Positions 9,673-41,246 of a stretch of DNA of 64,000 nucleotides are shown in pieces. Each line of letters begins with the position of its first letter. The first letter of the stretch is position 1. The stretch is taken from NCBI RefSeq assembly GCF_014874095.1, contig NZ_JADBEB010000001.1:4216001-4280000 (forward strand). Reading direction: 5' to 3'. The position numbers and the translations under genes were made by a program. The DNA is from Plantactinospora soyae (GTDB lineage Bacteria; Actinomycetota; Actinomycetes; Mycobacteriales; Micromonosporaceae). The notes beneath the pieces were generated by a model, which saw nothing but the letters and a program-made list of their open reading frames with translations, searched no databases and was not told the DNA's origin.

Positions 9673-9724
9673 GTTAGGAAGGGCCCCTTCTTCTACAAAA
9701 AACGATAGGAAGGGGCCCTTCCTT
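9673..9724. repeat. Hairpin repeat family, copy 1
   Basis: A 52-base element that begins GTTAGGAAGGG and ends GGGGCCCTTCCTT, with the loop TCTACAAAAAACGAT. The two arms pair over about 16 bp and each arm is itself nearly palindromic. Near-identical copies are at 17964-18015 and 41195-41246. This copy lies between converging genes and ends exactly one base before the SMI1 stop codon, so it probably terminates that gene as well as backing up the GH9 terminator. Confidence 0.9.
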
Positions 9725-10384
9725 TCATGCCGTCTCGGCGGCCTTGTCGAGCCAGTCGAGGTACCAGCGTTCGAAGCCGACCCGGTCGCCCCGGGCGTCG
9801 GTCAGCGGCTTGAGGCCGCCGTCGTCGGCGGTGTCGTCGGCCCACATCGCACCGCGCTCCGGGCCGCTCACCACCAGCAGCTGCCGGTACGCGCAGCCGA
9901 GGTGGCACAGGTAGATCGTGCCGACGGTGTGGCGCGGGTCGTGCGCCACCTTGTCGTGCAGTTCCTGGTAGGCCTCCTCGGCCGCGTCGAACTCCTCGGC
10001 TGAGGGGTGGTCGTCCTCGTCCGGGGGCTCGGGCAGGTCCGCTGCGGGATCGAAGAACCCGGTGTACGGGAACGGCTCGCCGAGCGTCGCCGGAACGGTC
10101 AGGTCCGCCCCGTCGCCCTCCCACCGCCACCGGCCGTCGACGCGGCGCAGCGGAAAGACTCCGTACGCCGGCCCCGCGCCACCCCGGCTCACTTCGAGGA
10201 GGAACGACCGGTACTCCTCGGGCAGCTGAACGCCGAGTTGCTCCTCCAACTCCACGAGTTCGTCCGGACTCAGCGGAGGATCGAGGAGGAATTGGTGGCT
10301 GGCGGCGCCGAACACGTCACTTCCGGGGCGGGCGGCCAGCTCGGCGACCCGCTCGCGTACGCCGGACCAGTCGATGCTTGTCAT
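9725..10384 (-). CDS. SMI1/KNR4 family protein
   Basis: A 219-residue cytoplasmic protein. The SMI1/KNR4 (SUKH) fold is recognisable in LSPDELVELEEQLGVQLPEEYRSFLLEVSRGG (about residues 33-64) followed by GPAYGVFPLR. Family members include immunity proteins of contact-dependent toxins and also solitary housekeeping regulators. No toxin gene is adjacent, so an immunity role is not supported by context. The start could also be the ATG at 10420, giving 12 more residues; neither has a strong ribosome site. Confidence 0.8.
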   Translation of the reverse strand: MTSIDWSGVRERVAELAARPGSDVFGAASHQFLLDPPLSPDELVELEEQLGVQLPEEYRSFLLEVSRGGAGPAYGVFPLRRVDGRWRWEGDGADLTVPATLGEPFPYTGFFDPAADLPEPPDEDDHPSAEEFDAAEEAYQELHDKVAHDPRHTVGTIYLCHLGCAYRQLLVVSGPERGAMWADDTADDGGLKPLTDARGDRVGFERWYLDWLDKAAETA

Positions 10385-10435
10385 GCGCGGCACGATAACC
10401 GGCCGGCCCGGCATCGGCATTCCGGAGGGGACGGG

Positions 10436-10741
10436 TCAGAGCCCGCGTCGCTCGGCCATCCGCTCGACCGCGTTCTTCGCGTCGCGCAGGCTCTCCCCGG
10501 TCGCCTCCCGGTACGCCTTGATCGCGGGGATCTTCCTGCCCTCCTTCAGGTGGCGTAGCACCTCCGGCAGGTCCGGCTCGGGTTCGACGATCCCGAGATG
10601 GTCGAGGACCAGTTGCAGTTTGCGCTCGATCCGGCCCAGCCGGACGGCGCTCTCCCGCTGGCGCCTGGCGGCCGACGACGACTCCGTCAGCAGGATCAGC
10701 AGAACGGGCAGGCCGACGATGAGAAGTACCCAGGCGTCCAT
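10436..10741 (-). CDS. Small membrane-anchored protein with ribosomal L7/L12-like C-terminal domain
   Basis: A 101-residue protein. Residues 1-20 are a hydrophobic helix (MDAWVLLIVGLPVLLILLTE), followed by a charged coiled segment and a C-terminal domain IKAYREATGESLRDAKNAVERMAE (about 72-97). That domain matches the core of the ribosomal L7/L12 C-terminal domain, which normally recruits translation factors. Similar TM plus L7/L12-like proteins are widespread in actinobacteria and uncharacterised. It probably shares a strand and possibly a transcript with the SMI1-family gene downstream. Confidence 0.7.
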   Translation of the reverse strand: MDAWVLLIVGLPVLLILLTESSSAARRQRESAVRLGRIERKLQLVLDHLGIVEPEPDLPEVLRHLKEGRKIPAIKAYREATGESLRDAKNAVERMAERRGL

Positions 10742-10775
10742 GAGGGAAATTTAAGCAGCATCCGTCAGATCAATG

Positions 10776-11297
10776 TCAGGAGCAGTCGATGACCGCGCCG
10801 GGGCGGCCGTCCGCGGGAAGTTGGAGCACGGTGATCTCGTCCACCCCGGGAAGCCGCCGTACCGGCGTCAACGCCTCGCAGTCGAACGTCTTCCCGGTGC
10901 TTCGGAGCCGGAACGACTCGGGCATCGACTCGGGCCGGGCGGCGTTCACCAGATCCGGTTGGTCCTTGAACTGCTCCTTGAACCTCTCCCAGGTCTCCTC
11001 GCGGCTCTGCAACCGGATGCCGTCCACCGGGCGCAGCGCGGTCAGCGCCGACTTGATCACGTCCTTCTGCTCGGCGGTGGCGTCGAGGTCCAGGAGCACG
11101 CCCACCTCGTACCGGTGCTGCGCCTGGCCGACCTGGACGACGACCAGCAGCACCGTTGTGGCGATGGCCGCTCCGACGAGCATCGCGACGGCGGCGACGC
11201 CCGCCAGCACCGCCCAGTGCCGCGCCGGGACGGATCGACCGGGGGTGGCGGGTGGCGGCGGGACCCCCGTCGACGGCGCAGGCGTTGGTTCGGACAT
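10776..11297 (-). CDS. FtsX extracellular-domain-like membrane protein
   Basis: A 173-residue protein with a proline-rich cytoplasmic N-terminus, one transmembrane helix (about residues 26-58) and an extracytoplasmic domain that reads like the FtsX ectodomain (VGVLLDLDATAEQKDVIKSAL, then SREETWERFKEQFKDQPDLV, ending with a short Cys-containing tail). True FtsX has four membrane segments and a permease core; here only the ectodomain and one anchor remain. It cannot be the FtsE partner, so a separate regulatory or envelope-sensing role is inferred. An alternative ATG at 11306 would add three residues. Confidence 0.75.
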   Translation of the reverse strand: MSEPTPAPSTGVPPPPATPGRSVPARHWAVLAGVAAVAMLVGAAIATTVLLVVVQVGQAQHRYEVGVLLDLDATAEQKDVIKSALTALRPVDGIRLQSREETWERFKEQFKDQPDLVNAARPESMPESFRLRSTGKTFDCEALTPVRRLPGVDEITVLQLPADGRPGAVIDCS

Positions 11298-11414
11298 GGC
11301 CACCATTCTTACTTACCGACGTCGATGAGCGCACGGGTTGTGGACCCTGTGCGAACGGTGTCGCCGCCGCCGGCACCCGGTCCCGGGGGTGCCGACGGCG
11401 GCGACGGAACTATG

Positions 11415-13415
11415 TCAGCGGGTACGCAGCCCGTACCCGTAGGGGAACAGCGGACGGTAGTTCCGGTCACCGACGTTGATCGGTACCTGTGCCTCGCTGC
11501 GCGGCCAGCTCATCGAGAGCTTGCCGGTGAACGGGCGCCTGCCGAACAGGACGTCGGCGACGCCGGCGCCCTCGCTGCCGGGCAGCCAGGATGCGACCAG
11601 CGCGTCCATCTGGCCGAGCTGGTCGGTGAGCACCTGCGGCCGGCCGGAGACGACGAGCACGACGCAGGTGTCGATCTCCCCGCAGACCTTGTCGATCACG
11701 GCCTGGTCGCCGGGCTGGAGGGAGAGCGACTTCGCCTCCTGCTGCGGCGTCGAGCACCAGGTGCACTCCGGCCCGCCGACGTCGCCGAATCCCTCGGTGT
11801 ACGGCGTCTCGCCGACCACCACGACCGCGACGTCCGAGCCGGCGGTCGGCGCGGACCCGTCGGCGCTGTACGTCACCGTGGCGCGCGGGGCCACCTCACG
11901 GATGCCCTCCAGGATGGTCGTACCCGGGATGGTGTCGCCGGAGACGCCCTGCCAGGTGATGGTCCAGCCACCGGCCTGGTTGCCGATGTCGTCGGCGTTG
12001 CGCCCGGCGACGTACACCTTGGCGTCCTTGCGCAGCGGCAGGGCCCGGTCGTCGTTCTTCAGCAGCACCTGCGACTGAGCGACGGCCCGGCGGGCGAGCG
12101 CGCGGTGCTCCGGGCTGCCGACCTCGTCGACGTTCTCCGCCGAGGCGTACGGACGCTCGAAGAGGCCGAGTTCGAACTTGGCCCGCAGGATCCGGCGTAC
12201 CGCGTCGTCGATCCGGGCCTGGCTGACCCGGCCCGCCCGGGCCTCGGCGATCAGCAGGTCGATGAAGAGTTTGGCGTTGTTCGGCGACATGGACATGTCG
12301 ATGCCGGCGTTCACCGCGGTCCGCACCTTGTAGGCGGTGAGCCCGGCGACGGTCGGCTCGTTCGGGTCGGGAATCTGGTGGATGCCCTCCCAATCGGAGA
12401 TGACGAACCCCTTGAACCGCTGCGCACCCTTGAGTACGTCGGTGAGCAGTTCCTTGTGGGCGTGCATCTTCAGCGGGTTGCCGACGCCGTCCTCGATCCA
12501 GTCCACACTGGAGAACGACGGCATCACGCTGTCGACGTCGTGCCGGCGCAGCGCGGTCCAGTAGGGGGCGAGGTTGATCCGGGCGAAGTCGGCCCGGCTG
12601 GTCACCGTGACGCCCTGGTCGATGACGTACTTCTGGGAACCGGGCGGCAGGCTCTCGTTGGCGTCGGCGGCGGCCTGGTCGTACTCGGTGTCGCCGTCAC
12701 CGGCGAAGTGCTTGATCGTGGCGAGTACGCCGGCGTCGCGCAGCCCGTCGATGTAGGTGCCCATCTCGCCGACCAACGCGGGGTCCTCGCTGAAGCTCTC
12801 GTACGTCCGGCCCCAGCGCTCGTCACGGGCGACGCAGAGGCAGGGGGCGAAGTTCCACGGTACGCCGGTGGCCTTCACTTCCTCACCGGTGGCCCGGCCG
12901 ATCTGCCGGACGAGTTCGGGATCACGGGTCGCGCCGAGTCCGATGTTGTGCGGGAAGACGGTGGCGCCGTACACGTTGGCGTGCCCGTGCACCGCATCGA
13001 CCCCGTAGATGATCGGGATGCCCAGCCGGGTGCTCATGGCCTGCCGCTGGAACTTGTTGACCATGGACACCCAGGCTTCGGGGGTGTTCGGGGTCGGGGT
13101 GGAGCCGCCACCGGAGAGCAGCGATCCCAGTTGCCACTGGGCGACCAGGGTCGGGTCGGCGTCCACCGCGATCCGCTCGGCCTGGGCCATCTGGCCGACC
13201 TTCTCCGCCAGGGTCATCCGGCCGAGCAGGTCACCGACCCGGCGGTCGATCGGCAGCTTGGCGTTCAGGTACGCGGGCTTGCCGGCGCCGTTGCCGTTGC
13301 CGGAGGCGGTCCCGGCGGGGGCCGCCGACACGGCGGCGGCGGGTAGCAACGAGGCGACCAGCAGGGCGGTGAGCAGGGATATCAGTGATGTTCGGGTTCG
13401 CGGGTGTGGACGCAT
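11415..13415 (-). CDS. Secreted GH3 beta-glucosidase / beta-glucan exo-hydrolase
   Basis: A 666-residue exported enzyme with a signal peptide (about 1-31, ending AVSAAPAG). The GH3 N-terminal barrel contains LGIPIIYGVDAVHGHANVYG, KHFAGDGDTEYDQAA, and the nucleophile Asp341 in GFVISDWEGIHQI; the C-terminal alpha/beta sandwich domain follows from about residue 430. The architecture is that of plant-type exo-beta-glucanases that act on beta-1,3/1,4-glucans and cello-oligosaccharides. The ATG has GGAGGG upstream. A CebR-like box at 13510-13523 and a promoter at 13456-13485 suggest co-regulation with the GH9 endoglucanase 1.8 kb away. Confidence 0.92.
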   Translation of the reverse strand: MRPHPRTRTSLISLLTALLVASLLPAAAVSAAPAGTASGNGNGAGKPAYLNAKLPIDRRVGDLLGRMTLAEKVGQMAQAERIAVDADPTLVAQWQLGSLLSGGGSTPTPNTPEAWVSMVNKFQRQAMSTRLGIPIIYGVDAVHGHANVYGATVFPHNIGLGATRDPELVRQIGRATGEEVKATGVPWNFAPCLCVARDERWGRTYESFSEDPALVGEMGTYIDGLRDAGVLATIKHFAGDGDTEYDQAAADANESLPPGSQKYVIDQGVTVTSRADFARINLAPYWTALRRHDVDSVMPSFSSVDWIEDGVGNPLKMHAHKELLTDVLKGAQRFKGFVISDWEGIHQIPDPNEPTVAGLTAYKVRTAVNAGIDMSMSPNNAKLFIDLLIAEARAGRVSQARIDDAVRRILRAKFELGLFERPYASAENVDEVGSPEHRALARRAVAQSQVLLKNDDRALPLRKDAKVYVAGRNADDIGNQAGGWTITWQGVSGDTIPGTTILEGIREVAPRATVTYSADGSAPTAGSDVAVVVVGETPYTEGFGDVGGPECTWCSTPQQEAKSLSLQPGDQAVIDKVCGEIDTCVVLVVSGRPQVLTDQLGQMDALVASWLPGSEGAGVADVLFGRRPFTGKLSMSWPRSEAQVPINVGDRNYRPLFPYGYGLRTR

Positions 13416-13455
13416 GTCGTGCCCTCCAAAACCAATCGGGTACGCGCCAGGACAG

Positions 13456-13485
13456 ATCTTTCCCAGGTCCATAAGACGACGTCAA
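13456..13485 (-). promoter_or_regulatory. Putative promoter of the GH3 gene
   Basis: Read on the minus strand, TTGACG (13480-13485) and AAAGAT (13456-13461) are 18 bases apart, about 40 bases before the start codon. Confidence 0.5.
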
Positions 13486-13509
13486 TGTTAAACCGTAAGG
13501 GTTCCTTCG

Positions 13510-13523
13510 TGAGAGCGCTCCCC
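13510..13523. promoter_or_regulatory. CebR-like operator upstream of the GH3 gene
   Basis: TGAGAGCGCTCCCC matches 12 of 14 positions of the CebR palindrome. It lies about 25 bases upstream of the -35 element proposed above, or would overlap the -35 of a second possible promoter with TAACAT as its -10. Confidence 0.7.
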
Positions 13524-13781
13524 CGCGGGCTATATGTCCGGCTATAGCCGTGATTTCTGGTTCCCGGAGTCGATCAAGCCACCGTGGACCATGCCGAAGA
13601 TCGACGCGGCCGTCAGGTCGACTGTCCTACTTGGACTTAGGGGAGACGCTACCTCGACCGAGGGGAGGCGCTGGCTCGCCAGGGGGGAGGCGCTGGCTCG
13701 CCAGAGGGAGGTGGTGCGGCGGCGGCGCGGGCATCGTGAACCTCCGGAACGCCCGGACGGGCGACGATCGAGGAGGACAGG
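13524..13781. other. Intergenic stretch with an inverted repeat and a tandem repeat
   Basis: GCTATA (13529-13534) and TATAGC (13543-13548) form an inverted repeat with an 8-base spacer next to the CebR-like box. The 18-base unit GAGGCGCTGGCTCGCCAG occurs at 13665-13682 and again at 13687-13704, about 80 bases before the next gene. No gene is visible. Confidence 0.6.
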
Positions 13782-14393
13782 ATGAAGGCAACGGTGTACC
13801 GGATCGGCGCGGCGGCGGTCGCGGCCGGCATGGTGTTGAGTGGATCGGTGGCGTCGGCGGCACCCGCTTCCCGCCCCGGACCGCTGGCCCGGGTGACGGG
13901 CTCGGCGGAGGTCCGGCTGACGTACTGGCCGGACAGTGACGTCCGGGCGTTCACGTTCGACGCCACGGCGGCGCCGTACAGCCGACCGTTTCCGGGGGCT
14001 CCCGACGGGCTGCCCACCGATGCGGTGGGGACCGTACGCATCTCACACCTGGTGGCCGACGCGGGCATCACCGTCCGGATGGTCGCGCGGGTCGACTGCC
14101 TGGCGACGGGACCCGGTGTGGCAACGCTGACGGCGGTCGTCACCGAGGCGGACGAGCCCGCGCAGGAGCAGGTCGGAAAGCGGCTCGGCTTCAGCGTGTC
14201 CGACACGGGGCGGCGCGGTACCGACCGGGTGGGCTTCTCCTGGTCCGTGGTGAACGCGGACCAGAACGAGGCGGGGGAGTGGGGCGAGGGGAGGATCGGT
14301 ACCTGCATGGGCCCCGGCCCGTTCGCCCCGGTGACGCGCGGCGACTACACGGTCCGGCACCAGGACCTGACGCCGGTGCCGACCCGGCGCTGA
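13782..14393 (+). CDS. Secreted protein of unknown function
   Basis: A 203-residue protein with a signal peptide (about 1-27, cleavage near VASAAPAS). The mature part is beta-rich, with segments AEVRLTYWPDSDVRAFTFDA, GTVRISHLVADAG and RVGFSWSVVNADQ, and two cysteines (near residues 107 and 180) that could form a disulfide. Proteins with this pattern are common in actinobacteria and are sometimes loosely annotated as repetin; no activity is known to me. The ATG has GAGGAGG upstream. A strong hairpin terminator follows at 14462. Confidence 0.8.
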   Translation: MKATVYRIGAAAVAAGMVLSGSVASAAPASRPGPLARVTGSAEVRLTYWPDSDVRAFTFDATAAPYSRPFPGAPDGLPTDAVGTVRISHLVADAGITVRMVARVDCLATGPGVATLTAVVTEADEPAQEQVGKRLGFSVSDTGRRGTDRVGFSWSVVNADQNEAGEWGEGRIGTCMGPGPFAPVTRGDYTVRHQDLTPVPTRR

Positions 14394-14461
14394 TCCGGCG
14401 AGGGAGGTCGGGTCGTCTCGGGCGACCGCCCCGGTGCCGTCCGGCACACCACGCGCATCGA

Positions 14462-14506
14462 GGTGGTCGTCCCGCGAGAATTCGCCGACCGTGCGGGACG
14501 ACCACC
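14462..14506. terminator. Hairpin terminator between converging genes
   Basis: Perfect 14-bp arms at 14462-14475 and 14493-14506 around a 17-base loop, between the secreted protein gene and the converging alpha/beta hydrolase gene. Confidence 0.75.
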
Positions 14507-14561
14507 CCGAGCGTCGGGGCGGTGCGGCCGGCTGCTACCCGGTCCGGCGCCTGGTGGGCGG

Positions 14562-15449
14562 CTACTCGTCGGCGTGGTCGGCGAGCGCGCGGATCTCCTT
14601 GGCGTAGGTGGGCCAAACGTCGCGGGAGATGAAGTGGCCGACGCCGGACAGAAGGCGTAGCCGGGCGGCGGGGACGGCGGCGGCGATGTCCCGTGGGGCC
14701 GTCGACCGCAGTAACGGGTCGCGATCGCCGTGCAGCACCAGGGTCGGTGCGGTGATCCGGGCGAGCGGGCCGCCGTGCCACTTCGCGCCGATCTGCCGGC
14801 TCTGCGCCTTGGCGTCACGCAGGCTGGTGACCTGGTGCGCGGCCTCCCTGTCCACGAACTCGCGTACGTCCCGCTCGTCGATCTGTTGGCCCGGCGCCAG
14901 GATCCGGGCGACGGCCACGGCCATGGCCAGGTGGCCCTGCGGGGTGTCGGGGGCGCGCAGCCGGGCGAAGTGGGCCACCGTTCCCAGGCGCAGGTAGCGC
15001 AGCACACCCAGGCCCTTCGCGTCGCTGGGCACGGCCGAGGAGGTGGTGACGGTCAGCACCCGCTCCGGATGGCGGATCGCGGTGCGCTGCGCCACGAGCC
15101 CGCCCATGGAATGGCCGAAGAGGTGGGCGCGTGGCCAGCCCAGGGCGTCCAGTACGGCAACCGCGTCGTCGGTCAAATCCTCGGCGCTGTACGCGGGGGC
15201 CGCGCGGCGCAGTAGGGCACGGATCGGCGAGCCGGTGCGCTGGTCGGGCAGGTGGGTGGACTCGCCCGCGTCGCGCTGGTCGTAGGCCACGACGTGGAAC
15301 CCGTGACGTACCAACTCGTCCACCAGCCCACCGGGCCACCAGAACCGTGAGGCGCCCAGTCCCATGACCAACAGCAGCGGGTCACCGCCCACGCCGCCCA
15401 GGTCCTCGAAGGCGAGCTGAATCTCGCCGTTGCGGGCAAAGCGTGTCAT
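14562..15449 (-). CDS. Alpha/beta hydrolase
   Basis: A 295-residue hydrolase. The nucleophile elbow is GHSMGG with Ser114; the acid and base are visible in LHGDRDPLL and GVGHFIS near the C-terminus, and the oxyanion segment MGLGASRFWWP lies near residue 29. The sequence resembles the esterase/aclacinomycin-methylesterase-like branch, but the substrate is unknown. The ATG has a GGAGGG site. It is divergent from a TetR regulator across 68 bases that contain a 28-bp inverted repeat, so it is probably the regulator's main target. Confidence 0.88.
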   Translation of the reverse strand: MTRFARNGEIQLAFEDLGGVGGDPLLLVMGLGASRFWWPGGLVDELVRHGFHVVAYDQRDAGESTHLPDQRTGSPIRALLRRAAPAYSAEDLTDDAVAVLDALGWPRAHLFGHSMGGLVAQRTAIRHPERVLTVTTSSAVPSDAKGLGVLRYLRLGTVAHFARLRAPDTPQGHLAMAVAVARILAPGQQIDERDVREFVDREAAHQVTSLRDAKAQSRQIGAKWHGGPLARITAPTLVLHGDRDPLLRSTAPRDIAAAVPAARLRLLSGVGHFISRDVWPTYAKEIRALADHADE

Positions 15450-15465
15450 GGCGCCCTCCTCTTTC

Positions 15466-15493
15466 GCGTACGGCGTTCGCGAACAGCGTACGC
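15466..15493. promoter_or_regulatory. 28-bp inverted repeat, probable TetR operator
   Basis: The half sites 15466-15479 (GCGTACGGCGTTCG) and 15480-15493 (CGAACAGCGTACGC) pair at 12 of 14 positions with no spacer. It is centred in the short gap between the divergent hydrolase and TetR genes, the classic layout of an autoregulated TetR repressor. Confidence 0.8.
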
Positions 15494-15517
15494 CAAGGGG
15501 TAGGCTGTCGCCAAGCG

Positions 15518-16204: not shown

Positions 16205-16313
16205 CACAACCTCCCGAGAACCGAGTGGGCGTACGGTGATGTCCACCGGTCGCCCCGGTCCGTTGTGCCGTCGCGGATCGCCACCGTCTCGGACATCCAC
16301 ACCGGACCGTCGG

Positions 16314-16493: not shown

Positions 16494-16552
16494 GGCTGCG
16501 CGGATCTGATTGAGGGTGGTGTTGCCCTGGTCGGCGGCCTGCGCAGTCGTTG

Positions 16553-16581: not shown

Positions 16582-16584
16582 TGC

Positions 16585-16932
16585 ATGGAAATCAGTGAGC
16601 AGACGTTCCTGATCCTCTCCGCCCTCGCCGACCAACCCCGGCACGGCTACGGCGTGGTGACGGAGGTCGACGAGATGACCGACGGCAGGATCCGGTTACG
16701 CGCTGGCACCCTCTACGGGGCCCTCGACCGCCTGGTCACCCAGGGGCTCATCGCCCCCGACCACGACGAGGTGGAGAAGGGCCGGCTGCGGCGTTTCTAC
16801 CGACTGACCGACACCGGGGCGGACGCCATCCGCGCTGAGAGCCGGCGGATGGCCACCGCGGTCCGGCTCGCCGAGGAGCGCCTCGACAAGCGCGCCGCCC
16901 GCAACACCCCGCGCCTTGGGACCAGCGGATGA
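16585..16932 (+). CDS. PadR family transcriptional regulator
   Basis: A 115-residue regulator with the PadR winged helix (LILSALADQPRHGYGVVTEV, then RAGTLYGALDRLVTQGLI, then RRFYRLTDTG at about 70-79). The C-terminal dimerisation helix is short. The ATG is 4 bases after the operator arm, which indicates a leaderless transcript. The stop codon overlaps the start of the next gene (ATGA), so the membrane protein is translationally coupled. Confidence 0.9.
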   Translation: MEISEQTFLILSALADQPRHGYGVVTEVDEMTDGRIRLRAGTLYGALDRLVTQGLIAPDHDEVEKGRLRRFYRLTDTGADAIRAESRRMATAVRLAEERLDKRAARNTPRLGTSG

Positions 16933-17903
16933 ACCCGGACATGAGCCCCCTGGAGCGACGATACCGACGGCTGCTGCGCCTACTGCCAGCCACGCACCGC
17001 GCCGCCCGCGGCGAGGAACTGCTCGGACTGCTGCTGGACCTCGACCATGGCCGCCGACACCCGAGCCGGCACGAGACACTGCACATCATCGCCCTGGCGA
17101 TCCGGCTGCGACTCACGACGCCCGTCACCACGGCGGCCCTCACCACTGGACTCAGTGCCCTGCTCGTCGCCGCCGGTACCCAGCCCGCCGGTGACACCCT
17201 GGACCTGTTCACCGGCGCCGTCCTCGCCACCGACATGCCGGGCATCATCTCCAGTTGGCCGCAGATAGCCGTTCTCGGCCTGCTGCCCCTCGCGCCGCTG
17301 ATCGCCTGGCTGTGCGGCGCGACCCGGACCGCCCTCACCCTGCAAGCAATCTTCCTGACGGCCACCGTTGGTTGGTTCGTCATCGACGTACTCAACGGTG
17401 CCGGCATCGGAATCAACCCCGGCCAACAGCTCTTCGCGTACGCCGCACCGGTCTTGATCTTCGTCCTGCTCGCGATCGCTGACCGCGAGCGGTGGACCGC
17501 GCCCCGGCCGCGCCTGTTCTGGTGGGCCCTCGTCCCGCTCGGGATCCTCGCCTGGAAGGGCACCGGAGAATGGGGACGCCACGGCGTGTACGTTCCCGAC
17601 GCCGTGCCGACGGTCATCGGGATCCTCACCGCCGCCACCGCCGCTGTCGGAGCCGCCGTCGCGGTCCGCCGCCACCGGCCCGCCGTCATCATCGGCGTCG
17701 GACTCACCGGCTTCATCGCCGGATGGCTCATCCCCGACCCGCTGCTCTCCAACACGGCGATGCAGCACTTCGACCGTCAGCCGCTACCACTGGCAGTCCT
17801 CATCACGGTGATCGCTGCCACCATCACTGGCATCAGTCACCTCGCCGGTCGCCACAACCCCGAGGTGCGATCGCTACCACCCGATGAACCCGTGATGCGC
17901 TGA
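16929..17903 (+). CDS. Multi-pass membrane protein, PadR operon partner
   Basis: A 324-residue protein. A soluble N-terminal part (PLERRYRRLLRLLPATHRAARGEEL) is typical of proteins encoded after PadR regulators, and about eight hydrophobic segments follow from residue 55 onward. The N-terminal motif is shared with actinobacterial membrane proteins of the YrhK/permease-like group, but no transport motif is visible. It is coupled to padR by a 4-base overlap and is therefore the likely effector of that regulator, perhaps in envelope stress or drug response. Confidence 0.78.
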   Translation: MNPDMSPLERRYRRLLRLLPATHRAARGEELLGLLLDLDHGRRHPSRHETLHIIALAIRLRLTTPVTTAALTTGLSALLVAAGTQPAGDTLDLFTGAVLATDMPGIISSWPQIAVLGLLPLAPLIAWLCGATRTALTLQAIFLTATVGWFVIDVLNGAGIGINPGQQLFAYAAPVLIFVLLAIADRERWTAPRPRLFWWALVPLGILAWKGTGEWGRHGVYVPDAVPTVIGILTAATAAVGAAVAVRRHRPAVIIGVGLTGFIAGWLIPDPLLSNTAMQHFDRQPLPLAVLITVIAATITGISHLAGRHNPEVRSLPPDEPVMR

Positions 17904-17963
17904 ACACCAGTCTCGGGCCAGACAAGCGGCGACCGCAGGCCCTCCGTCGCGGGCCGGGGGGCG

Positions 17964-18015
17964 TTAGGAAGGGGCCCTTCTTCTACAGAAAACGATAGGA
18001 AGGGGCCCTTCCTTA
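17964..18015. repeat. Hairpin repeat family, copy 2
   Basis: The same 52-base hairpin as at 9673 and 41195, with GGGGCCC in place of GGGCCCC in the first arm and AGAAAA in place of AAAAAA in the loop. Here it lies after the PadR operon and just before the promoter of the next gene on the same strand, where it can only act as the upstream operon's terminator or as an insulator. Confidence 0.9.
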
Positions 18016-18026
18016 CCGCCCGGAGT

Positions 18027-18060: not shown

Positions 18061-18645
18061 GTGGGGAAGGGTGAGCTGACCAAGCAGACCGTGCTCGCGA
18101 CGGCGACCGAGATCGCCGGCCGGCTCGGGCTGGCCGGGCTCACCATCGGCTCCCTGGCCAGCCAGGTGGAGATGTCCAAGAGCGGGCTGTTCGGGCATTT
18201 CCGCTCGAAGGAGGCACTCCAGATGGAGGTCCTGGCGTACGCCCGGGAGAGCTTCATCGAAACGGTCATCCATCCGGCGCTGGCCGCGCCCCGGGGTGAG
18301 CGGCGGGTCCGGACGATGGTGGATCGCTGGCTCGAGTGCAGCCTGGAGCGGGAGCCGGGTTGTCTCTTCGTCTCCGCCGACACCGAGTTCGACGACCAGC
18401 CCGGACCGGTCCGGGACCAGCTCGTCCGGGACCACCGGGACCTGATGGAGTCGATCGCCCAGATGTTCCGGACCGGGATCAGCGAGGGCGAGTTCCGGCC
18501 CGACGCCGATCCCGAGCAGTTCGCCCACGACCTGTACGGCGTCATGCTCGGGTTCTTCCACGCGCACCGCCTGATGAACGATCCCGCAGCCGCGTCCCGG
18601 AGTCATCGGGCCGTCGACGCGCTGCTGGACAACGCCCGGATCTGA
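18061..18645 (+). CDS. TetR/AcrR family transcriptional regulator
   Basis: A 194-residue regulator with GTG start. The DNA-binding domain is VLATATEIAGRLGLAGLTIG, then SQVEMSKSGLFGHFRSKEAL (about residues 11-52); the C-terminal domain is of the TetR_C_6-like type. The start codon lies close to the -10 element, so the transcript has almost no leader. An alpha/beta hydrolase follows 23 bases downstream on the same strand and is the likely co-regulated gene. Confidence 0.87.
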   Translation: MGKGELTKQTVLATATEIAGRLGLAGLTIGSLASQVEMSKSGLFGHFRSKEALQMEVLAYARESFIETVIHPALAAPRGERRVRTMVDRWLECSLEREPGCLFVSADTEFDDQPGPVRDQLVRDHRDLMESIAQMFRTGISEGEFRPDADPEQFAHDLYGVMLGFFHAHRLMNDPAAASRSHRAVDALLDNARI

Positions 18646-29831: not shown

Positions 29832-30608
29832 TCAGGCGACCGTGGAGTAGCCGCGGGTGGCGATCCAGTTGGTCATGTCGATCGTGCTCATCCAGTAGGT
29901 GCTGGGGCCGTACATGCCGGAGCCGTCGGCGATCTTGACGGTCCGACCGTTGTCGCCGTAGCCGATGATCGTGACGTAGTGGCCACCCGGGAAGTCGTGC
30001 CAGACCCCGTCGGCGTCGGTCGCGCCGCCGATGATGTTGGCCACGACGGCATAGCCGCTGCCGATCGCGTGTACGGCGTCAGCCTGCAACTGATCCATCT
30101 GAGCGGGTGTGGCGTCCTCGTCCGAGATCTCCCGCGTCTGGTACACCTGGCTGCCGATGGCGCCGTTGAGCATCCGGGTGGTGTCGAAGGCGGACGCGGT
30201 GCCGTGGACCGTGGTGCCCAGCCCGTTGGCGAGATCCTGCTGGCTGACGTCGATGCCGCGTGCGGTCAACGCGTTGTGCACGGCGGCCGGGCCGCAGTAG
30301 TAGAAGTTGATCTGGTACTCGAACGAGGTGTCCAGGGTCTTTTCGGCGGGGCCCGCCGGAACGGCGGGTCGGGTGGGCTTTGCGGCCGTGTCCCGGTCGG
30401 CCACCGCAGCACCCATGACCAGCGAATCCGAGGTGACGGCCGGGCCGGGAGCGGTGGCCCCCGGCAGCAGGGCGCCGGCCGTGGCGGCCGTCGCCGCGGT
30501 CAGCAGCGCCGCCGACAGCAGCGCCATCTTCTGGCCTCGGCGCGGCGCGGTGGGTCCGAACAGGCCGCGAATTCGGTGCACATCGGGACCGGGGAGACGC
30601 ACGTGCAT
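29832..30608 (-). CDS. Secreted C39-like cysteine peptidase
   Basis: A 258-residue exported protein with a basic N-terminus and hydrophobic signal segment (about 28-52), then a papain-like C39 domain. The catalytic cysteine is Cys105 in FYYCGPAAVHNAL, the histidine His210 in GGHYVTIIGYGD and the acid Asp228 in IADGSG. It is probably a cell-wall or bacteriocin-type peptidase acting outside the cell. The ATG has GGAAGGAG. A c-di-AMP riboswitch lies in its leader, which in actinobacteria typically controls cell-wall hydrolases and related secreted peptidases. Confidence 0.88.
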   Translation of the reverse strand: MHVRLPGPDVHRIRGLFGPTAPRRGQKMALLSAALLTAATAATAGALLPGATAPGPAVTSDSLVMGAAVADRDTAAKPTRPAVPAGPAEKTLDTSFEYQINFYYCGPAAVHNALTARGIDVSQQDLANGLGTTVHGTASAFDTTRMLNGAIGSQVYQTREISDEDATPAQMDQLQADAVHAIGSGYAVVANIIGGATDADGVWHDFPGGHYVTIIGYGDNGRTVKIADGSGMYGPSTYWMSTIDMTNWIATRGYSTVA

Positions 30609-30614
30609 TTCTCC

Positions 30615-30755
30615 TTCCGCTGCCGCCTACCGGGTTAGCTGACGGGTTCGGGCGGGAAAGATGCGCCCTTCCGCGGTCGCCTGAAGCGTCCTACGGATTC
30701 ACCCCAAGGTGTGGAATGGGTCCCCGGCTCGCAACGATCTGCGATTGAGCGGTCC
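30615..30755 (-). ncRNA. c-di-AMP riboswitch (ydaO-yuaA class)
   Basis: On the minus strand the leader contains GAGCCGGGGACCCA (30717-30730), GGGTGAATCCG (30694-30704) and AACCCGTCAGCTAACC (30633-30648), in the order and spacing of the ydaO-yuaA RNA, followed by GTAGGCG and the ribosome site. The riboswitch binds c-di-AMP and usually shuts off genes for cell-wall peptidases and potassium transport. Here it directly precedes the C39-type peptidase. Confidence 0.9.
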
Positions 30756-31113
30756 GGCCCGGTGTCATCACGGTTTGATGACTGATGACCGAGCCCGGAT
30801 ATGCGAGGCTACGGTCCGACTTCTCGACCACCAAGCCCCGCATCAGGGATGTGATCGATTGCATTCGCCGTCAGGCGGATAGCAGGCGTCGCCTTCCAGA
30901 AGAGACAGCCATTCCGGAACGCGACACCGGGCGCCGAGTGGCATCGCCGGCAGGAATTGGGGGTCGCCGAGGCAGGCAACCGGGAACCGCCGTACGAAAT
31001 GGGACACGGTTGGTCGATCTGGTCGACGTGTCACCGTTCCTGGCGGTTTCCGGGCGGGCGCCCCGGGTAGGCGGCCTGGCACCGGACGTTATGTCAGCGG
31101 AGGAGGAACTACT
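30756..31113. other. Divergent promoter region between riboswitch and msrB
   Basis: About 360 bases that hold the promoters of the peptidase (minus) and MsrB (plus). I see no convincing gene or hairpin. GATGAC-type short repeats near 30765-30790 (TCATCACGGTTTGATGACTGATGA) could be part of a promoter or operator. Confidence 0.45.
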
Positions 31114-33744: not shown

Positions 33745-33811
33745 TGCGCCGCTGCCGCTGGCACCCCTGTTGCCGCTGCCACCGCTCTCCCTGCCACCGC
33801 AGGTCCGGGCG

Positions 33812-34015: not shown

Positions 34016-34047
34016 GCTCCGGGTGGTCCCCGTCAGGTCGTGGTCGT

Positions 34048-35411: not shown

Positions 35412-36548
35412 GTGCCGAGCTGGCTGGAGGTTCTGGACCGACGGGCACGGCTGCGCGCGAAAGCCGGCCTCAGCCGTCGGTTGCGACCGAGGGACGCGAC
35501 CGAGGATCTGCTCGACCTCGCCGGCAACGACTACCTGGGACTGTCCCGGCACCCCGAGGTGACGGCCGCCGCGGCCGAGGCGTTGACCGGGTACGGCCTG
35601 GGCGCCACCGGCTCCCGACTGGTACGCGGCTCCACCGAACCGCACCACGCCCTGGAGGCGACCCTGGCGCAGTGGCTGGGCGCCGGGCGGGCACTGGTCT
35701 TCTCCTCCGGCTACCTGGCCAACCTCGGTGCGGTACGCGCCCTGGTCCAGCCCCGTACCCTGCTCGTCTCCGACGCGCACAACCACGCCTCGCTGATCGA
35801 CGGTTGCCGGCTGTCCGGCGCGGAGACGGTGGTCACGCCGCACCTCGACGTCGCCGCCGTCGAGGCGGCCCTGGCCGGGGCGCCGGGCCGGCCGGCGGTG
35901 GTGGTCACCGAATCCGTCTTCTCGGTGGACGGCGACCTGGCGCCGCTCGCCGAGCTGCACGCGGTGGCCCGCCGGCACGGCGCGCTGCTGCTCGTCGACG
36001 ACGCACACGCGCTGGGGGTGCTCGGCCCGGACGGCGCGGGCGCGGTCGCCGCCGCCGGGCTCGGCGGAGCCTCGGACGTCGTGGTGACCGCGACCCTGTC
36101 CAAGGCGCTCGGCGGAGCCGGCGGAGTGGTGGCCGGACCGGCCGAGCTGGCCCGGCACCTGATCGACACCGGCCGGACCTTCATCTACGACACCGCGCTT
36201 CCGCCGGCGGTGGCCGCGGGCGTGCTCGCCGCCACCAGGCTGGCCCGGACCGGGGCCGGGCTGCGGGCCGAGCTGGCCGAGCGGGCCGCCGCCGTGACCC
36301 GCCGGCTCGGCGCGGCGGGCCTGGAGGTCTCCACCCCGACCGCCGGTGTGGTGTCGGTGACCGCGCCCGGCCCGGAGACGGCGGTGGCCTGGGCGGCCGA
36401 CTGCCGGGACCGGGGGGTCGCGGTGGGCTGCTTCCGGCCGCCGTCGACCCCCGACAGCCGTTCCCGGCTCCGCCTGACCATCAACGTGGGACTCGACCGG
36501 CGCGACTTCGACCGGGCGCTCGACGTGATCGTGGAGTGTGCCCCGTGA
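35412..36548 (+). CDS. bioF: 8-amino-7-oxononanoate synthase
   Basis: A 378-residue PLP enzyme that condenses pimeloyl-ACP/CoA with alanine, the first dedicated step of the biotin ring pathway. The PLP lysine is Lys231 in [43 protein letters not shown] and [11 protein letters not shown] are typical. The GTG at 35412 with GGGGAG upstream is preferred over the GTG at 35406. The stop overlaps bioD (GTGA). Confidence 0.94.
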
Positions 36549-37276
36549 CCAACGTGGCGTGGCGTGGTCCGATCCTGGTCACCGGGACCGACACCGACGT
36601 GGGCAAGACGATCGTCACCGCCGCGATCACCGCGGCCGCCCAGGCCGCCGGCCTGCGGGTCGCCGTGCTCAAACCGGGCCAGACCGGTACGGCCACCGGC
36701 GCCGTTCCGGACATCGACACCGTGAACCGGCTGGCCGCCCCGATGACCGCCCGCACCCTGGCCAGCTACCCCGAGCCGCTGGCCCCGCTCGCGGCGGCCC
36801 GGGTCGCCGAGGCGGAGCCCCTGGAGCTGTACGCCGTGGCCGACGAGATCCGGGCCGAGGCGGACAAGCACGACCTGGTGCTGATCGAGGGTGCCGGCGG
36901 ACTGCTGGTCCCGATGGGGCTGCGCCCGTCCGGCGAGGCGTGGACGTTCGCCGACCTGGCGGTGTCGATCGGTGCCCCGGCCGTGGTGGTCACCCGGGCG
37001 GGCCTGGGCACGCTCAACCACACCGCGCTCACCCTGGAGGCGCTGGACCGGCGGGCGGTGCCGGCCGGTGTGGTCCTCGGCGCCTGGCCGGCCGAACCCG
37101 AGCTGGTGCACTGGGCCAACCTCACCGAACTGGTACCGAACATGGTCGGCGCGCTGCCGGACGGCGCCGGAACGATGGAACCGGGTGTGTTCCGCCGCTC
37201 CGCGCCGGGCTGGCTCACCCCGGCCCTGTACGGCGTACTGGACGACTGGCGGACCTGGGCCGAAGACGTCAGCTGA
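36545..37276 (+). CDS. bioD: Dethiobiotin synthetase
   Basis: A 243-residue ATP-dependent enzyme that closes the ureido ring. The P-loop GTDTDVGKT is at 14-22; the ATP-grip segments LKPGQTG (about 43) and EGAGGLLVPMG (about 117) are intact. The GTG start overlaps the bioF stop by 4 bases, so translation is coupled. bioA is not in the window. Confidence 0.94.
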   Translation: MTNVAWRGPILVTGTDTDVGKTIVTAAITAAAQAAGLRVAVLKPGQTGTATGAVPDIDTVNRLAAPMTARTLASYPEPLAPLAAARVAEAEPLELYAVADEIRAEADKHDLVLIEGAGGLLVPMGLRPSGEAWTFADLAVSIGAPAVVVTRAGLGTLNHTALTLEALDRRAVPAGVVLGAWPAEPELVHWANLTELVPNMVGALPDGAGTMEPGVFRRSAPGWLTPALYGVLDDWRTWAEDVS

Positions 37277-37311
37277 ACCTCCGGCGGCGGGTGAACGTGA
37301 GTGGAACCGCG

Positions 37312-38301
37312 CTAGAGGTGGGTAGCCGCCGAGACGTCGGGTTTCGTCTCGACCAGGCCGTACCGCAGCATCCGGTCGGCGAAGAACTCCAGGGACTCGA
37401 CGTCGACCCGGGTGCCCCAGACCGGGATGTTCACCTTCGGGGCGAGGTCCGCCCGCACGTTCGCCACGGCGGGCAGCGCGGTCCGGTACTCCTGCGGGTT
37501 GGCGGTGATGTGCGCGGCGGTCCGGGCGGCGGCGTCCTGGAACGCCCGCACGATCCCCGGATTGGCCCTGATGTAGCTCTCGGACGCCGAGTACGTGCCG
37601 ACGGCGAGGTTCGGCCTCGCCTCGACGTACGGCCGGAAGACCACCCGGGTCCCCTGGCTGGCGGCGATGGTGGCGAAGGGCTCGATCACCAGGGCCGCGT
37701 CCACCCGACGCTGGGTGATCGCCGGCAGCATCTCCGGAAAGCCCAACTCCAGGAACTTGACCGACCCGGGGTCGGCACCCGCCTTCTCCAGGGACGCCTT
37801 CAGCACGATCTCGCTGACGTTGGTGAGCGTGTTGACCGCCACCGTCCGACCCGCCAGGTCGGCGACGGACCGGATCGGCGAGTCCTCGGTGACGATGACC
37901 GCCGAGAAGTCCTTCGCCGGATCCGCGCCGACCGAGGTACCCGGGGCGATGATCTGCACGGGTACGCCCCGGCTGCGCGCCAGCAGCATCGAGACCGCGT
38001 TCGAACCGCCGACCGCCAACTCGCCGGAGACGAGTCCGGGGACGATCGCGGCGCCGCCCTGTTGCCGGACGAGTTCGACGTTGAGGCCACGCTCGGCGAA
38101 GAAGCCCTTCTGGATCCCGAACGCCAGGAACGACGCCGGTGCCCCCTCGATGTCGCCGACCTTGATGCTGACCGGCTTCTCCCGGCTCGGTCCGTCGGCC
38201 GAAGCCGGGGTGGCCGGACCGGAGTCGCCGCAGCCGGCCGACGACACGGCCAGGACGAGGACGGCGCCGTACCAGATGATTCTGCTGACGATCCTGTGCA
38301 T
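37312..38301 (-). CDS. ABC transporter substrate-binding lipoprotein (NMT1/SsuA-like)
   Basis: A 329-residue lipoprotein with signal peptide and lipobox ending at Cys24 (VSSAGCG). The fold is of the nitrate/sulfonate/taurine or thiamine-precursor binding type: IQKGFFAERGLNVELV, GGSNAVSMLLARSRG, SVADLAGRTVAVNT, then EMLPAITQRRVDAALVIEPF. No permease or ATPase gene is nearby, so it is an orphan in this window. It converges on bioD. The ligand is unknown; placement next to biotin genes is suggestive but not evidence of biotin-precursor uptake. Confidence 0.85.
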   Translation of the reverse strand: MHRIVSRIIWYGAVLVLAVSSAGCGDSGPATPASADGPSREKPVSIKVGDIEGAPASFLAFGIQKGFFAERGLNVELVRQQGGAAIVPGLVSGELAVGGSNAVSMLLARSRGVPVQIIAPGTSVGADPAKDFSAVIVTEDSPIRSVADLAGRTVAVNTLTNVSEIVLKASLEKAGADPGSVKFLELGFPEMLPAITQRRVDAALVIEPFATIAASQGTRVVFRPYVEARPNLAVGTYSASESYIRANPGIVRAFQDAAARTAAHITANPQEYRTALPAVANVRADLAPKVNIPVWGTRVDVESLEFFADRMLRYGLVETKPDVSAATHL

Positions 38302-38694
38302 CGGAGCCTCCGCTCGGGCTTGGAGGTCGGAAACCCGGCGGGCGTACCGCTGCGCGGGGACGCGGCACCGGAGGAGTCGATCGTGCGGCACAGGGCACGC
38401 CGTCGGCGCGGTCACCTGCTTGGCGGTCGTCGAGTTGCGGGGGCTGCGGGTGCCAGCGGGAGCGGTGGCCCCTCGCCGGTACGGAGCGGAACGTCCGGAA
38501 TATCTATCGGCGTTCCTGAATCTTAACAGCAGAACGGGAGGCTCAATACCTCCCTTTCGGGGCGCGGAGCCCCGGGGCGTACCGGAACGCCGGTCGGCGC
38601 CCACCCCCGACCGGCTCCGTCGCCGTGCCGGCTCCCGGGAACCTCTGACTTTCGGCAGTAACGCGCAGGTGGCGAGGCTTGTAGCCTGGGCCGG
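38302..38694. other. 393-bp divergent intergenic region
   Basis: Two small hairpins (GGGAGG...CCTCCC near 38537 and GGGGC...GCCCC near 38560) and an AT-richer segment near 38500-38525 with a TAAGAT-like -10 on the minus strand are visible. No gene and no riboswitch that I recognise. Confidence 0.4.
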
Positions 38695-40458
38695 ATGACG
38701 GACTGGGCGCTCGCGACGCTGCGGCGGGGCGGGTCTTTCGACTCGGTGCTCAGCCATCGGGACCGGGTCCGCGACGTGCTGCTCTGGGCGGTGCTCTCCG
38801 CGCCGGTCGCCCTGGCGTTGGTGACCCCGCCGCACGCGCCGTGGTACGCCGTCCGGCTGGCCGGTTCGGTGCTGCTGCTCGCGGTCGCGGTGCTGGCGAG
38901 CCGGTGGGCGCCGCTGCTCTCCCTCGTGCTGGTCGTGCTTCCGACCGCGTTCGACGGCAACTTCATGTTCGCCATTCCGGTCTTCAGCTATCTGGTGGGG
39001 CTGCGCGAGCGCCGGGCCGGACCGGTGGGGCTGACCTTCGCCGTGATCGCGATCGGCGGCACGGTACTGAACTTCGGCCTGCTCGGCACCGCCGCCGAGG
39101 TCTGGTTCCTGCTGGCCAGCACGCTGCTCGTCGGCGGGGTGTTCCCCTGGCTCGTCGGCCGGTACCACCGGCAGCACCGGACGCTGGTACTGGCCGGCTG
39201 GGAGCACGCCGGGCTGCTGGAACGGGAGCAGCAGGGCGCCGCCGAGCGCGTCCGGATGCGGGAGCGGGCCCGGATCGCCCAGGACATGCACGACTCGCTG
39301 GGACACGACCTGAGCCTCATCGCGCTGCGGGCCGGCGCCCTGGAGGTGGCGCCCGAACTCGACGAGCGGCACCGCCGGGCAGCCGGTGAACTCCGGGTCA
39401 GCGTCGCCCTGGCGACCGATCGGCTGCGGCAGGTCATCGGGGTGCTCCGGGATGACGCCGAGCCGGCGCCGGTCCGGCCGGCCGGGGAGAGCGTCGACGA
39501 CCTGGTGGAGCGCGCCCGGTCCGCCGGAATGTCGGTACGCCTGCTCACCGACCGCAAGCCCGCGCCGGCGCCCGCCGAGCGGCGCCCCGGATCGGTGCGG
39601 GACGACGCGGATGGTGTCGGTGTGGTGCCGGCGATGGTCGGGCGGGCGATCTGCCGGGTGGTACAGGAGGCGTTGACCAACGCGACCCGGCACGCCCCGG
39701 GGGCCGCGGTGACGGTTTCGTTGACCCACCGCGCCGACCGGACCTCCGTACGGGTGGTGAACGATCCGCCACCGGCCGGGCCGCTGCCCGGGGCCCGGAC
39801 GGCCGGGTCCGGCCTGGTCGGGCTGCGCGAGCGGGTACGGCTGGCCGGTGGCACCCTGCGGGCCGGACCCCGCGAACGTGGCTTCGAGGTACTGGCCGAA
39901 CTGCCCCACGCCACGGAGTCGGCGTACCCGGCCGAGTCGGTGTACCCGGCCGAACCGGCGTGTTCGGCTCGGCCGGGCGGGGGCGGGGGCGCAGGCCTGG
40001 TGTTCCGGTCGCCCGGATCATCGGACGCCGACGGGCGGGTGGTGCCGGGGCCGGGGCCGGTGCCGGGGCCGGGGCCGGGGCCGGAACAGCTCGGCACGGC
40101 GGCCCAGCGGCTGCGTCACGCCCGGCAGCGGGTCCGGCGCAGCCTGGTGGCGGCGGTGACCGTACCGGCCGCGATCGGGGTGATGCTGGTGCTCGCGTAC
40201 TACCCGATCGCGTCCTTCAACGCGGTGCTGGACTCCGAGCGGTACGACCGGATGCGGGTCGGGCAGGACCGCGCCGAACTGCGTGACCTGCTGCCGGAGC
40301 GGCAGGTCGCCGAACCGGAGGACGCGCCCGATCGTCCGGTGCCGACCGGGGCCGCCTGCGAGTTCTACTCCGACGGCGGTTTCCCGCCGGGGCAGACCGT
40401 CTACCAGCTCTGTTTCCTGGACGGGCAACTCGTGGTCAAGCACCGCCTCGCCGGCTGA
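38695..40458 (+). CDS. NarL-type sensor histidine kinase with an extra C-terminal membrane-anchored domain
   Basis: A 587-residue kinase. Residues 28-155 contain about five membrane segments; the HisKA_3 phosphoacceptor is His199 in AQDMHDSLGHDLS, and the ATPase domain is at about 320-400 (EALTNATRHAPG, GSGLVGLRERVRL). After that comes a Gly/Pro-rich linker (PGPGPVPGPGPGPG), another membrane helix (about 482-506) and an 80-residue extracytoplasmic tail with RVGQDRAELRDLLPERQ and a Cys...Cys pair. That tail resembles the SmpA/BamE-like fold by its (M)RVGQ...LLP...YQLCFLDG pattern. Kinases of this class normally end with the ATPase domain. It is followed 81 bases on by its response regulator. 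Confidence 0.85.
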   Translation: MTDWALATLRRGGSFDSVLSHRDRVRDVLLWAVLSAPVALALVTPPHAPWYAVRLAGSVLLLAVAVLASRWAPLLSLVLVVLPTAFDGNFMFAIPVFSYLVGLRERRAGPVGLTFAVIAIGGTVLNFGLLGTAAEVWFLLASTLLVGGVFPWLVGRYHRQHRTLVLAGWEHAGLLEREQQGAAERVRMRERARIAQDMHDSLGHDLSLIALRAGALEVAPELDERHRRAAGELRVSVALATDRLRQVIGVLRDDAEPAPVRPAGESVDDLVERARSAGMSVRLLTDRKPAPAPAERRPGSVRDDADGVGVVPAMVGRAICRVVQEALTNATRHAPGAAVTVSLTHRADRTSVRVVNDPPPAGPLPGARTAGSGLVGLRERVRLAGGTLRAGPRERGFEVLAELPHATESAYPAESVYPAEPACSARPGGGGGAGLVFRSPGSSDADGRVVPGPGPVPGPGPGPEQLGTAAQRLRHARQRVRRSLVAAVTVPAAIGVMLVLAYYPIASFNAVLDSERYDRMRVGQDRAELRDLLPERQVAEPEDAPDRPVPTGAACEFYSDGGFPPGQTVYQLCFLDGQLVVKHRLAG

Positions 40459-40539
40459 GTCGCCCGGCCCGCCCGGCACCGTCGGGGGCCGGGCGACGTA
40501 CCCGGATCGACGATTTTCCCGTGACGACAAGGAGTTCGA

Positions 40540-41187
40540 GTGATTCCCGTCCTGCTGGCCGACGACGAAACGATGATCCGGGCCGGGGTCCGGGCCATCC
40601 TGGCCACCGACCCGGAGATCGAGGTGGTGGCCGAGGCCGCCGACGGGCGCAGCGCGGTGGAACTGGCCCGGGCGCACCGGCCCCGGGTGGCCCTGCTGGA
40701 CATCCGGATGCCCCGGCTCGACGGGCTCGCCGCCGGAGCGCAGATCCGCCAGTTGGTCCCGGAGACGGCGGTGATCATGCTGACCACCTTCGGCGAGGAC
40801 GACTACATCGCCCGGGCGCTCGGCGAGGGGATGAGCGGCTTCCTGCTCAAGTCCGGCGACCCCCGGGAGTTGATCGCCGGGGTACGGGCGGTGGCGGACG
40901 GCGCGGCGTACCTGTCGCCGGAGGTCGCCCGGCGGGTCATCGAACTCGGCGGTGGACTGCTGGCCCGGGGCCCGGCCGCCCGGGACCGGATCGAGACGCT
41001 CACCGAGCGGGAGCGGGAGGTACTGGCCCTGGTCGGTGCCGGGCTCTCCAACGCCGAGATCGCCCGTCACCTCTTCCTGGTGGAGGGCACCGTGAAGAGC
41101 TACCTGAGCAGCATCTTCATCCGGTTGGGCGTACGGAACCGGGTACAGGCGGCGATCGTCGCGTACGAAGCCGGCCTGACGACCTGA
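40540..41187 (+). CDS. NarL/LuxR-family response regulator
   Basis: A 215-residue DNA-binding response regulator. The receiver domain contains the phosphoacceptor Asp54 (ALLDIRMPRLDG), the DD pair near residue 8-9 and the Lys109 region; the LuxR HTH is LTEREREVLALVGAGLSNAE (about 151-170). The GTG start follows AAGGAG. It pairs with the histidine kinase upstream, and the ABC exporter on the other strand behind copy 3 of the hairpin repeat is a possible target. Confidence 0.92.
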   Translation: MIPVLLADDETMIRAGVRAILATDPEIEVVAEAADGRSAVELARAHRPRVALLDIRMPRLDGLAAGAQIRQLVPETAVIMLTTFGEDDYIARALGEGMSGFLLKSGDPRELIAGVRAVADGAAYLSPEVARRVIELGGGLLARGPAARDRIETLTEREREVLALVGAGLSNAEIARHLFLVEGTVKSYLSSIFIRLGVRNRVQAAIVAYEAGLTT

Positions 41188-41194
41188 CGAGGGT

Positions 41195-41246
41195 GTTAGG
41201 AAGGGCCCCTTCTTCTACAAAAAACGATAGGAAGGGGCCCTTCCTT
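41195..41246. repeat. Hairpin repeat family, copy 3
   Basis: Identical over 52 bases to copy 1 at 9673-9724 as far as I can compare (arms, loop TCTACAAAAAACGAT). It lies between the converging response regulator and ABC permease genes, 7 bases after the regulator's stop codon, where it can terminate both. Confidence 0.9.

Follow-up and report, generated by a model that had tools for sequence, protein, structure and literature searches.

We consider it fairly probable (about 0.6) that three hairpins in a 64,000-nucleotide stretch of the Plantactinospora soyae genome (the window, i.e. the whole stretch of DNA that was analysed) belong to a single 54-nt element, interspersed in genomes of the Micromonosporaceae, whose role is that of a portable gene end. 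The original prediction described three near-identical hairpins, and these are indeed present: over 55 nt, copy 1 has 93% identity to copy 2 and 98% to copy 3, and the folds are stable (on the + strand −27.5 to −31.9 kcal/mol; 0-1 of 200 shuffles did as well). All three proposed sites proved real, the unit being 54 nt instead of 52 nt and copy 2 beginning one base earlier than proposed. Each copy holds the full unit and is read on the + strand. Copy 1 (9673..9726) lies between convergent genes, one for a glycoside hydrolase of family 9 with cellulose-binding domains (6984..9590, +, start approximate) and one for an SMI1/KNR4 (SUKH) domain protein (9725..10420, −), whose stop codon (TCA, 9725-9727) it overlaps. 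Copy 2 (17963..18016), which has a G-G mismatch at the stem centre, is flanked by two genes of the same direction: the stop of a gene without Pfam match (16929..17903, +) lies 59 nt before it, and the called start of the next gene, for a TetR-type regulator (18061..18645, +), follows after 44 nt. Copy 3 (41195..41248) is again placed between convergent genes, for a LuxR-type response regulator (40540..41187, +) and an ABC-2-like membrane protein (41264..42082, −, Pfam score under the cut-off), with the two stops at 7 nt and 15 nt. The proposal that all copies lie just after a stop codon thus holds for copy 3 and for the minus-strand gene at copy 1, but not for copy 2 or for the plus-strand gene at copy 1, whose stop is 82 nt away.

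In copy 1, the left arm (9676..9692, +) is a near-palindrome around AAGGGCCCCTT, and the right arm (9707..9723, +), 31 bp from it, is near-palindromic as well. With a limit of 3 mismatches, the arm motif occurs 13 times in the window (0.14 expected), and 12 of these occurrences are arms of the three copies, both strands counted. To characterize the family, we aligned 105 copies from the same genome, taken from 60 stretches of 20 kb, 30 short loci and the window (1.33 Mb in total); the stretches were chosen for near-consensus copies, so that diverged copies are under-represented among the 105. The consensus is GTTAGGAAGGGSCCCTTCTTCTACARAAARCGATARGAAGGGGCCCTTCCTTAC, and the element ends in GTTAGG/CCTTAC. 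Stem pairs follow i+j=55 and most are formed in 99-105 of the 105 copies; pairing is less frequent at columns 3/52 (5 copies), 21/34 (14), 2/53 (90) and the stem centre 12/43 (51), where 54 of the 105 copies have a G-G mismatch. Both arms are near-palindromic in themselves, with centres 31 bp apart, and none of 376 exact arm matches in the loci from this genome was a solitary arm. A U-tract after the stem is absent: columns 51-60 are mostly TT(A/G)CACC-like in the 105 copies. We also considered the outer flank GGT/ACC as an extension of the stem, but its match frequency was near expectation and we do not count it as paired structure.

Compensatory changes in the arms, proposed as a check in the original prediction, were found. 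In 54 diverse copies from several genera (set A4; alignments A3 and A4 omit 53- or 55-nt copies such as L186, L195, L314, L327, L335 and L338), 14 of the 20 pairs of the long hairpin showed two-sided changes. The number of covarying cells was 64, as compared with 17.9 in shuffles, and none of 500 shuffles reached 64; when the partner was slid along as a control, 2-11 cells remained. For the palindromes of the separate arms, two-sided changes were seen at 5 of 12 pairs, a value reached by 36 of 500 shuffles, with 17 changed cells, reached in 0 of 500. In genome G119, most copies read have the arms AGGAACGGNCCGTTCCT on both sides, and some copies in genome G073 have the arms CAAGGGNCCCTTG; despite these different arms, the loop (TATGCGGAAAGCG and near variants) is retained in both, and it is largely conserved across the copies of the family. 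Taken together with the pair statistics, these arm changes indicate that the arms may vary if their symmetry is kept, while the loop varies little. At one site (L035:16411-16464 and its orthologues in L102 and L104), the left arm of a subfamily, CCCCCGCTACAACA, is retained in three species; the right arm pairs with it in G004, and G000 and G002 have the common right-arm sequence.

When as many as 3 mismatches are allowed, a core of 32 nt has 160 matches in the P. soyae genome (9,715,930 bases, ~9.7 Mb), 84 forward and 76 reverse, and the reversed-pattern control gave 0. This confirms the high-copy family that had been predicted from the three copies and disposes of the possibility that the genome has only those three. 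Copies with 0-1 mismatch are unevenly spread, 67 lying below and 16 above 5.2 Mb, and the G+C skew of the sampled stretches switches near 2 Mb and near 6.9 Mb, suggesting that the copies concentrate in the half of the genome around the likely origin. In the Micromonosporaceae, 104 of 300 genomes and 14 of 44 genera had a match at E 1e-6, and copy-rich and copy-free species occur within one genus. Named hosts among the matches listed, 80 of at least 120 stretches, include Plantactinospora, Catellatospora and Micromonospora; match counts per genome in the surveys of the family and of relatives are lower bounds for copy-rich genomes, and both strands of one hairpin may count twice. In a sample of 396 genomes of the phylum, searched at E 1e-7 with stricter filters, the 1 match was the P. 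soyae genome itself, and 5 of 16 genomes of the same order from other families had weak matches (1-3 each, E 1e-3). Plasmid and phage collections gave no family match at E 1e-3. Three pattern matches in viral contigs had no hairpin partner by eye and were taken as chance. A literature search at the level of titles and abstracts, with subscription journals mostly outside its range, revealed no published description of the 54-nt family.

The position of the copies was related to genes called by a simple codon-usage caller, which gives approximate starts and exact stops. Among the 105 copies, 45 were convergent, 42 co-directional and 7 divergent in context, 10 were inside called genes and 1 was at an edge. 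Convergent gaps thus held 45 of the 94 intergenic copies, as compared with 12.8 expected by length (p = 1.5e-15), and divergent gaps held only 7, with 34.0 expected (p = 1.9e-10). Of the 87 convergent or co-directional copies, 79 had a stop no more than 10 nt away (median 3 nt), and the element overlapped the stop codon in 35. The tie to gene ends that had been claimed is therefore real, and placement without regard to gene ends does not agree with the convergent excess. The element is moreover polar: among the stops within 40 nt of its 3′ end, 71 of 72 fell into the range −4 to +8 nt, most often at −4 (25) and +3 (20), whereas the 52 stops within 40 nt of the 5′ end were dispersed from −5 to 36 nt. 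Stops beyond 40 nt numbered 2 on the 3′ side and 6 on the 5′ side of the element. Co-directional copies pointed their 3′ end toward the upstream stop in 29 of 42 cases (p = 0.02). The 3′ end of the element usually supplies a TAA, and for this reason 27 of the 72 genes that face it stop with TAA, as compared with 56 of 993 genes in the loci sampled. In convergent pairs with a copy, the spacer left besides the element had a median of 12 nt (32 pairs), as compared with 74.5 nt in pairs without a copy (160 pairs).

Four of the six reading frames are closed by a stop within the element in 96-103 of the 105 copies, and the remaining two are open in 103 and 87 copies. Among the 10 copies inside called genes, only three (694699, 2290338 and 3059781) were in frame with coding signal on both sides, and at 3059781 the signal was weak (0.24) on one side; in the other seven, the frame ends in or just after the element, the called frame is tiny, or the coding signal is lost after the element. 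In-frame insertion within genes is a property of the Rickettsia palindromic elements (RPE). The copy at 2290338 (L051:10339-10392) is inside a frame that by eye is P-type-ATPase-like and reads GTGAGG in place of GTTAGG; the TAG at the 5′ end is thereby gone and the reading frame stays open, and the same is seen in G002.

The presence or absence of the element at orthologous sites agrees with the mobile-like behaviour that had been suggested. We queried 24 sites and counted those for which both flanks were recovered. The nearest relative, G002, which is probably Plantactinospora alkalitolerans S1510, had the element at 14 of 14 recovered sites; the congener G003 had it at 0 of 15, and G004 at 1 of 13, although the latter genome has at least 139 matches (both strands may count). 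Three sites of L035, one of which is also in the set of 24, were all filled in G002; one was filled in G004, and none was found filled in G001, G003 and G006. In G016, which belongs to another genus, a copy aligned at the orthologous end of site 449750, with the right flank not recovered, and three congeners had no copy there. Loss in some congeners is thus possible, and presence and absence may be partly due to loss. The conserved gene at 694699, by eye metallo-beta-lactamase-fold-like, has the in-frame copy in G000 and G002 and lacks it in four congeners (G001, G003, G004 and G006), the filled site being 57 nt longer, i.e. 54+3. The gene at 2290338 has the copy in G000, G002 and G004 but not in G001, G003 and G006, and the gene at 3059781 has it in G000 and G004 but not in G001, G003 and G006 (G002 not recovered).

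We also looked at what stands at gene ends that have no copy. Hairpin energy was useless as a test for terminator replacement, since shuffled spacers score alike at this G+C content: element-less convergent gaps were barely above shuffled sequence (121 vs 114 of 134). We therefore used counts of perfect stems instead. Of 27 orthologous ends that lack the element, with gaps of 29-461 nt, 6 had a perfect stem of 10 bp or longer and of unrelated sequence, as compared with 0.1 in shuffles, and 21 did not. The G004 orthologue of window copy 3, for example, has an unrelated perfect stem of 13 bp instead of the element.

Copies within one species appear to evolve in concert. Orthologous copies of G000 and G002 were 92.6% identical, only slightly more than cross pairs that are not orthologous, at 90.9% (permutation 0.0015; the means are over 16 rows, as one of the 15 unique pairs is included twice). 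The flanks of the orthologous copies (up to 390 nt per side) were 84-96% identical between these genomes, and the 15 nt adjoining the element had 58% ungapped identity. For copies picked by an exact pattern that leaves the compared columns free, column 36 was A in 38 of 38 sampled P. alkalitolerans copies, and in the P. soyae genome it was A in 50 and G in 47 of 98. Other species have letters of their own: Catellatospora tritici has G at column 25 in 16 of 16 copies and M. echinofusca has C at column 19 in 15 of 15. At column 36, 9 of 15 orthologous copies differ in the same sense (by eye), which can hardly be explained by point mutation alone. Homogenisation or repeated replacement would account for these differences, directional selection being a possible alternative.

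A search for one transposase family and an inspection of genes between close copies brought no mobilising enzyme to light. RAYT, the Y1 HUH transposase (PF01797) suggested by the original prediction as a partner, had 0 matches in the P. soyae genome. Altogether, PF01797 gave no match in 12 of 16 copy-rich genomes (P. soyae and 11 of the 15 others), and the remaining 4 of 15 matched, as did 5 of 14 control genomes. RAYT is thus an unlikely mobiliser. Terminal inverted repeats, as in MITEs, are present, and the target-site duplication that MITE-type mobility would leave was not found convincingly in the 105 copies with all cut offsets and k=2-9: the best excess (10 vs 4.1 at k=2, z 2.8) is unconvincing because so many offsets were tried. 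Genes between close pairs of copies (by eye, the first three genes per pair) resemble unrelated host genes, and no partner gene stood out among those inspected that would indicate an autonomous parent element. The element may have been spread by a transposase acting in trans, or by recombination or gene conversion that swaps gene-end spacers between copies.

The 54-nt family resembles REP or MITE hairpins that serve as terminators, yet it fails the RAYT and tag tests and is without clear target duplication. REPINs consist of two palindromic units at fixed spacing, and so does the 54-nt element. Some elements in G073 stand as head-to-head pairs 18-28 nt apart (L320, L323), reminiscent of REPIN clusters. 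REP elements with RAYT transposases are, in the passages of PMC3733652 that concern them, short palindromes of high copy number tagged with GTAG or CGTC, mostly extragenic (94 of 105 here) and rarely inside genes. Unlike them, the 54-nt family is not accompanied by a Y1/RAYT-type gene in 12 of the 16 genomes rich in copies, has no single units (0 of 376 arm matches) and does not conserve the tag: GTAG beside one arm (minus strand) is common here and is replaced, e.g. by GCAT, in other members. With the bacterial MITEs RUP, Correia/NEMIS and CIR, as portrayed in parts of PMC2229807, the element shares inverted ends, interspersed positions, high uniformity and an RNA stem-loop, but it is about half as long, it has no clear target-site duplication, and a limited search found no parent insertion sequence. 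RPE are likewise palindromic and able to sit inside genes, but they are 105-146 bp long according to the same parts of PMC2229807, whereas our element has 54 nt and is mainly at stop codons. For Streptomyces clavuligerus, the sections of PMC8269248 on transcript ends report G+C-rich 3′ ends without U-tract ('HS-U-lack'), compared there with I-shaped terminators, and bidirectional ends. The stable G+C-rich stem is a common feature, found there at transcript ends, while here termination is deduced. These sections do not describe the ends as one repeated family, whereas here arms and loop are common to copies throughout the genome.

How would such an element act? Placed at a stop codon, it would supply ribosomes with stops in four of six frames, and RNA polymerase coming from either side would make nearly the same stable G+C-rich hairpin of about 17 bp. 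This hairpin, as a terminator without U-tract, would most likely end transcription from either direction; at the least, it would fix and protect the mRNA 3′ ends of the genes facing the element. The bias toward convergent genes agrees with the bidirectional terminator envisaged in the original prediction, and we infer that the element terminates transcription. The missing U-tract, the G-G at the stem centre in 54 of 105 copies, the 21 of 27 element-less ends without a 10-bp stem and the near-shuffled hairpin energies of element-less convergent gaps are points against this reading. A hairpin a few nucleotides from a stop codon would, moreover, sit under the terminating ribosome, and this is unusual for a plain terminator. 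The position within 10 nt of a stop in 79 of 87 copies could instead point to an element of translation or mRNA stability, like the stop-proximal REPs of E. coli, that halts the last ribosome or keeps 3′ exonucleases out while transcription ends elsewhere (Rho). This position agrees with the effect of E. coli REPs on translation, which they can down-regulate when less than 16 nt from the stop codon, as stated in the relevant portion of PMC12306157. We nevertheless regard this explanation as unlikely, as the convergent bias and the scarcity in divergent gaps suit transcription ends better, and at 45 of the 105 copies a gene ends on either side of one and the same element.

The conserved loop and the arms, which stay near-palindromic when their sequence changes (AGGAAGGGNCCCTTCCT-like here and different in most G119 copies read), would also fit a site in DNA at which a dimeric protein, an organiser of the nucleoid or its domains, binds two palindromic operators with a spacing of 31 bp (about three helical turns), gene ends being the places of least harm. 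The stem-centre mismatch in half of the copies, which leaves each arm palindromic, is in line with this. A DNA-bound protein, however, would not need placement fixed to within a few nucleotides by the stop codon, and two-sided changes are wider for the long hairpin (14/20) than for the separate arms (5/12, reached by 36/500 shuffles); such a site is in our opinion quite unlikely. A plain selfish MITE or REP doublet without host function, which would be found at gene ends because insertions survive there, would account for the patchy distribution within genera, for presence and absence at orthologous sites and for the three copies among 105 that lie in phase within a reading frame and are flanked on both sides by coding signal (weak on one side in one case). 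But random insertion into spacers with a median of 74.5 nt would scatter the distances, whereas those on one side peak at −4 and +3. The copies were also retained at 14 of 14 sites while the adjoining 15 nt kept only 58% ungapped identity, and neither a clear target duplication nor a RAYT was found, making a purely selfish element distinctly improbable. As for the portable gene end, we can offer a fuller version of it only tentatively and think it rather doubtful in its entirety: a mobile cassette with stop codons as its target, which replaces spacer and terminator and supplies both a translation stop and a bidirectional transcription stop, would be rewritten in concert throughout the genome and independently of RAYT, with each species standardising its gene ends.

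If the portable gene end is real, a module shared genome-wide can provide terminators, which usually count as local and fast-evolving, and a short element can occupy stop codons without disrupting genes. The family would then provide markers that separate insertion from conversion, in a bacterial family with well-known antibiotic producers, as well as compact bidirectional stop and terminator parts for the engineering of actinomycetes. It also raises the question of how a 54-nt palindrome is moved or homogenised where RAYT genes are absent.

At the gathering threshold of Rfam, the hairpins of the 64-kb window match no family, and the sole hit is a c-di-AMP (ydaO/yuaA) riboswitch elsewhere (30609-30761, −, 85.7 bits), upstream of the called minus-strand gene 29832-30527. 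The window also contains short tandem repeats at 2955-3170 (24 nt), 4575-4648 (21 nt) and 60998-61105 (18 nt). Outside the window, near genome position 2441222 (L053), an ordinary terminator-like hairpin followed by TTTT stands directly beside a copy of the family, showing that both types can coexist.
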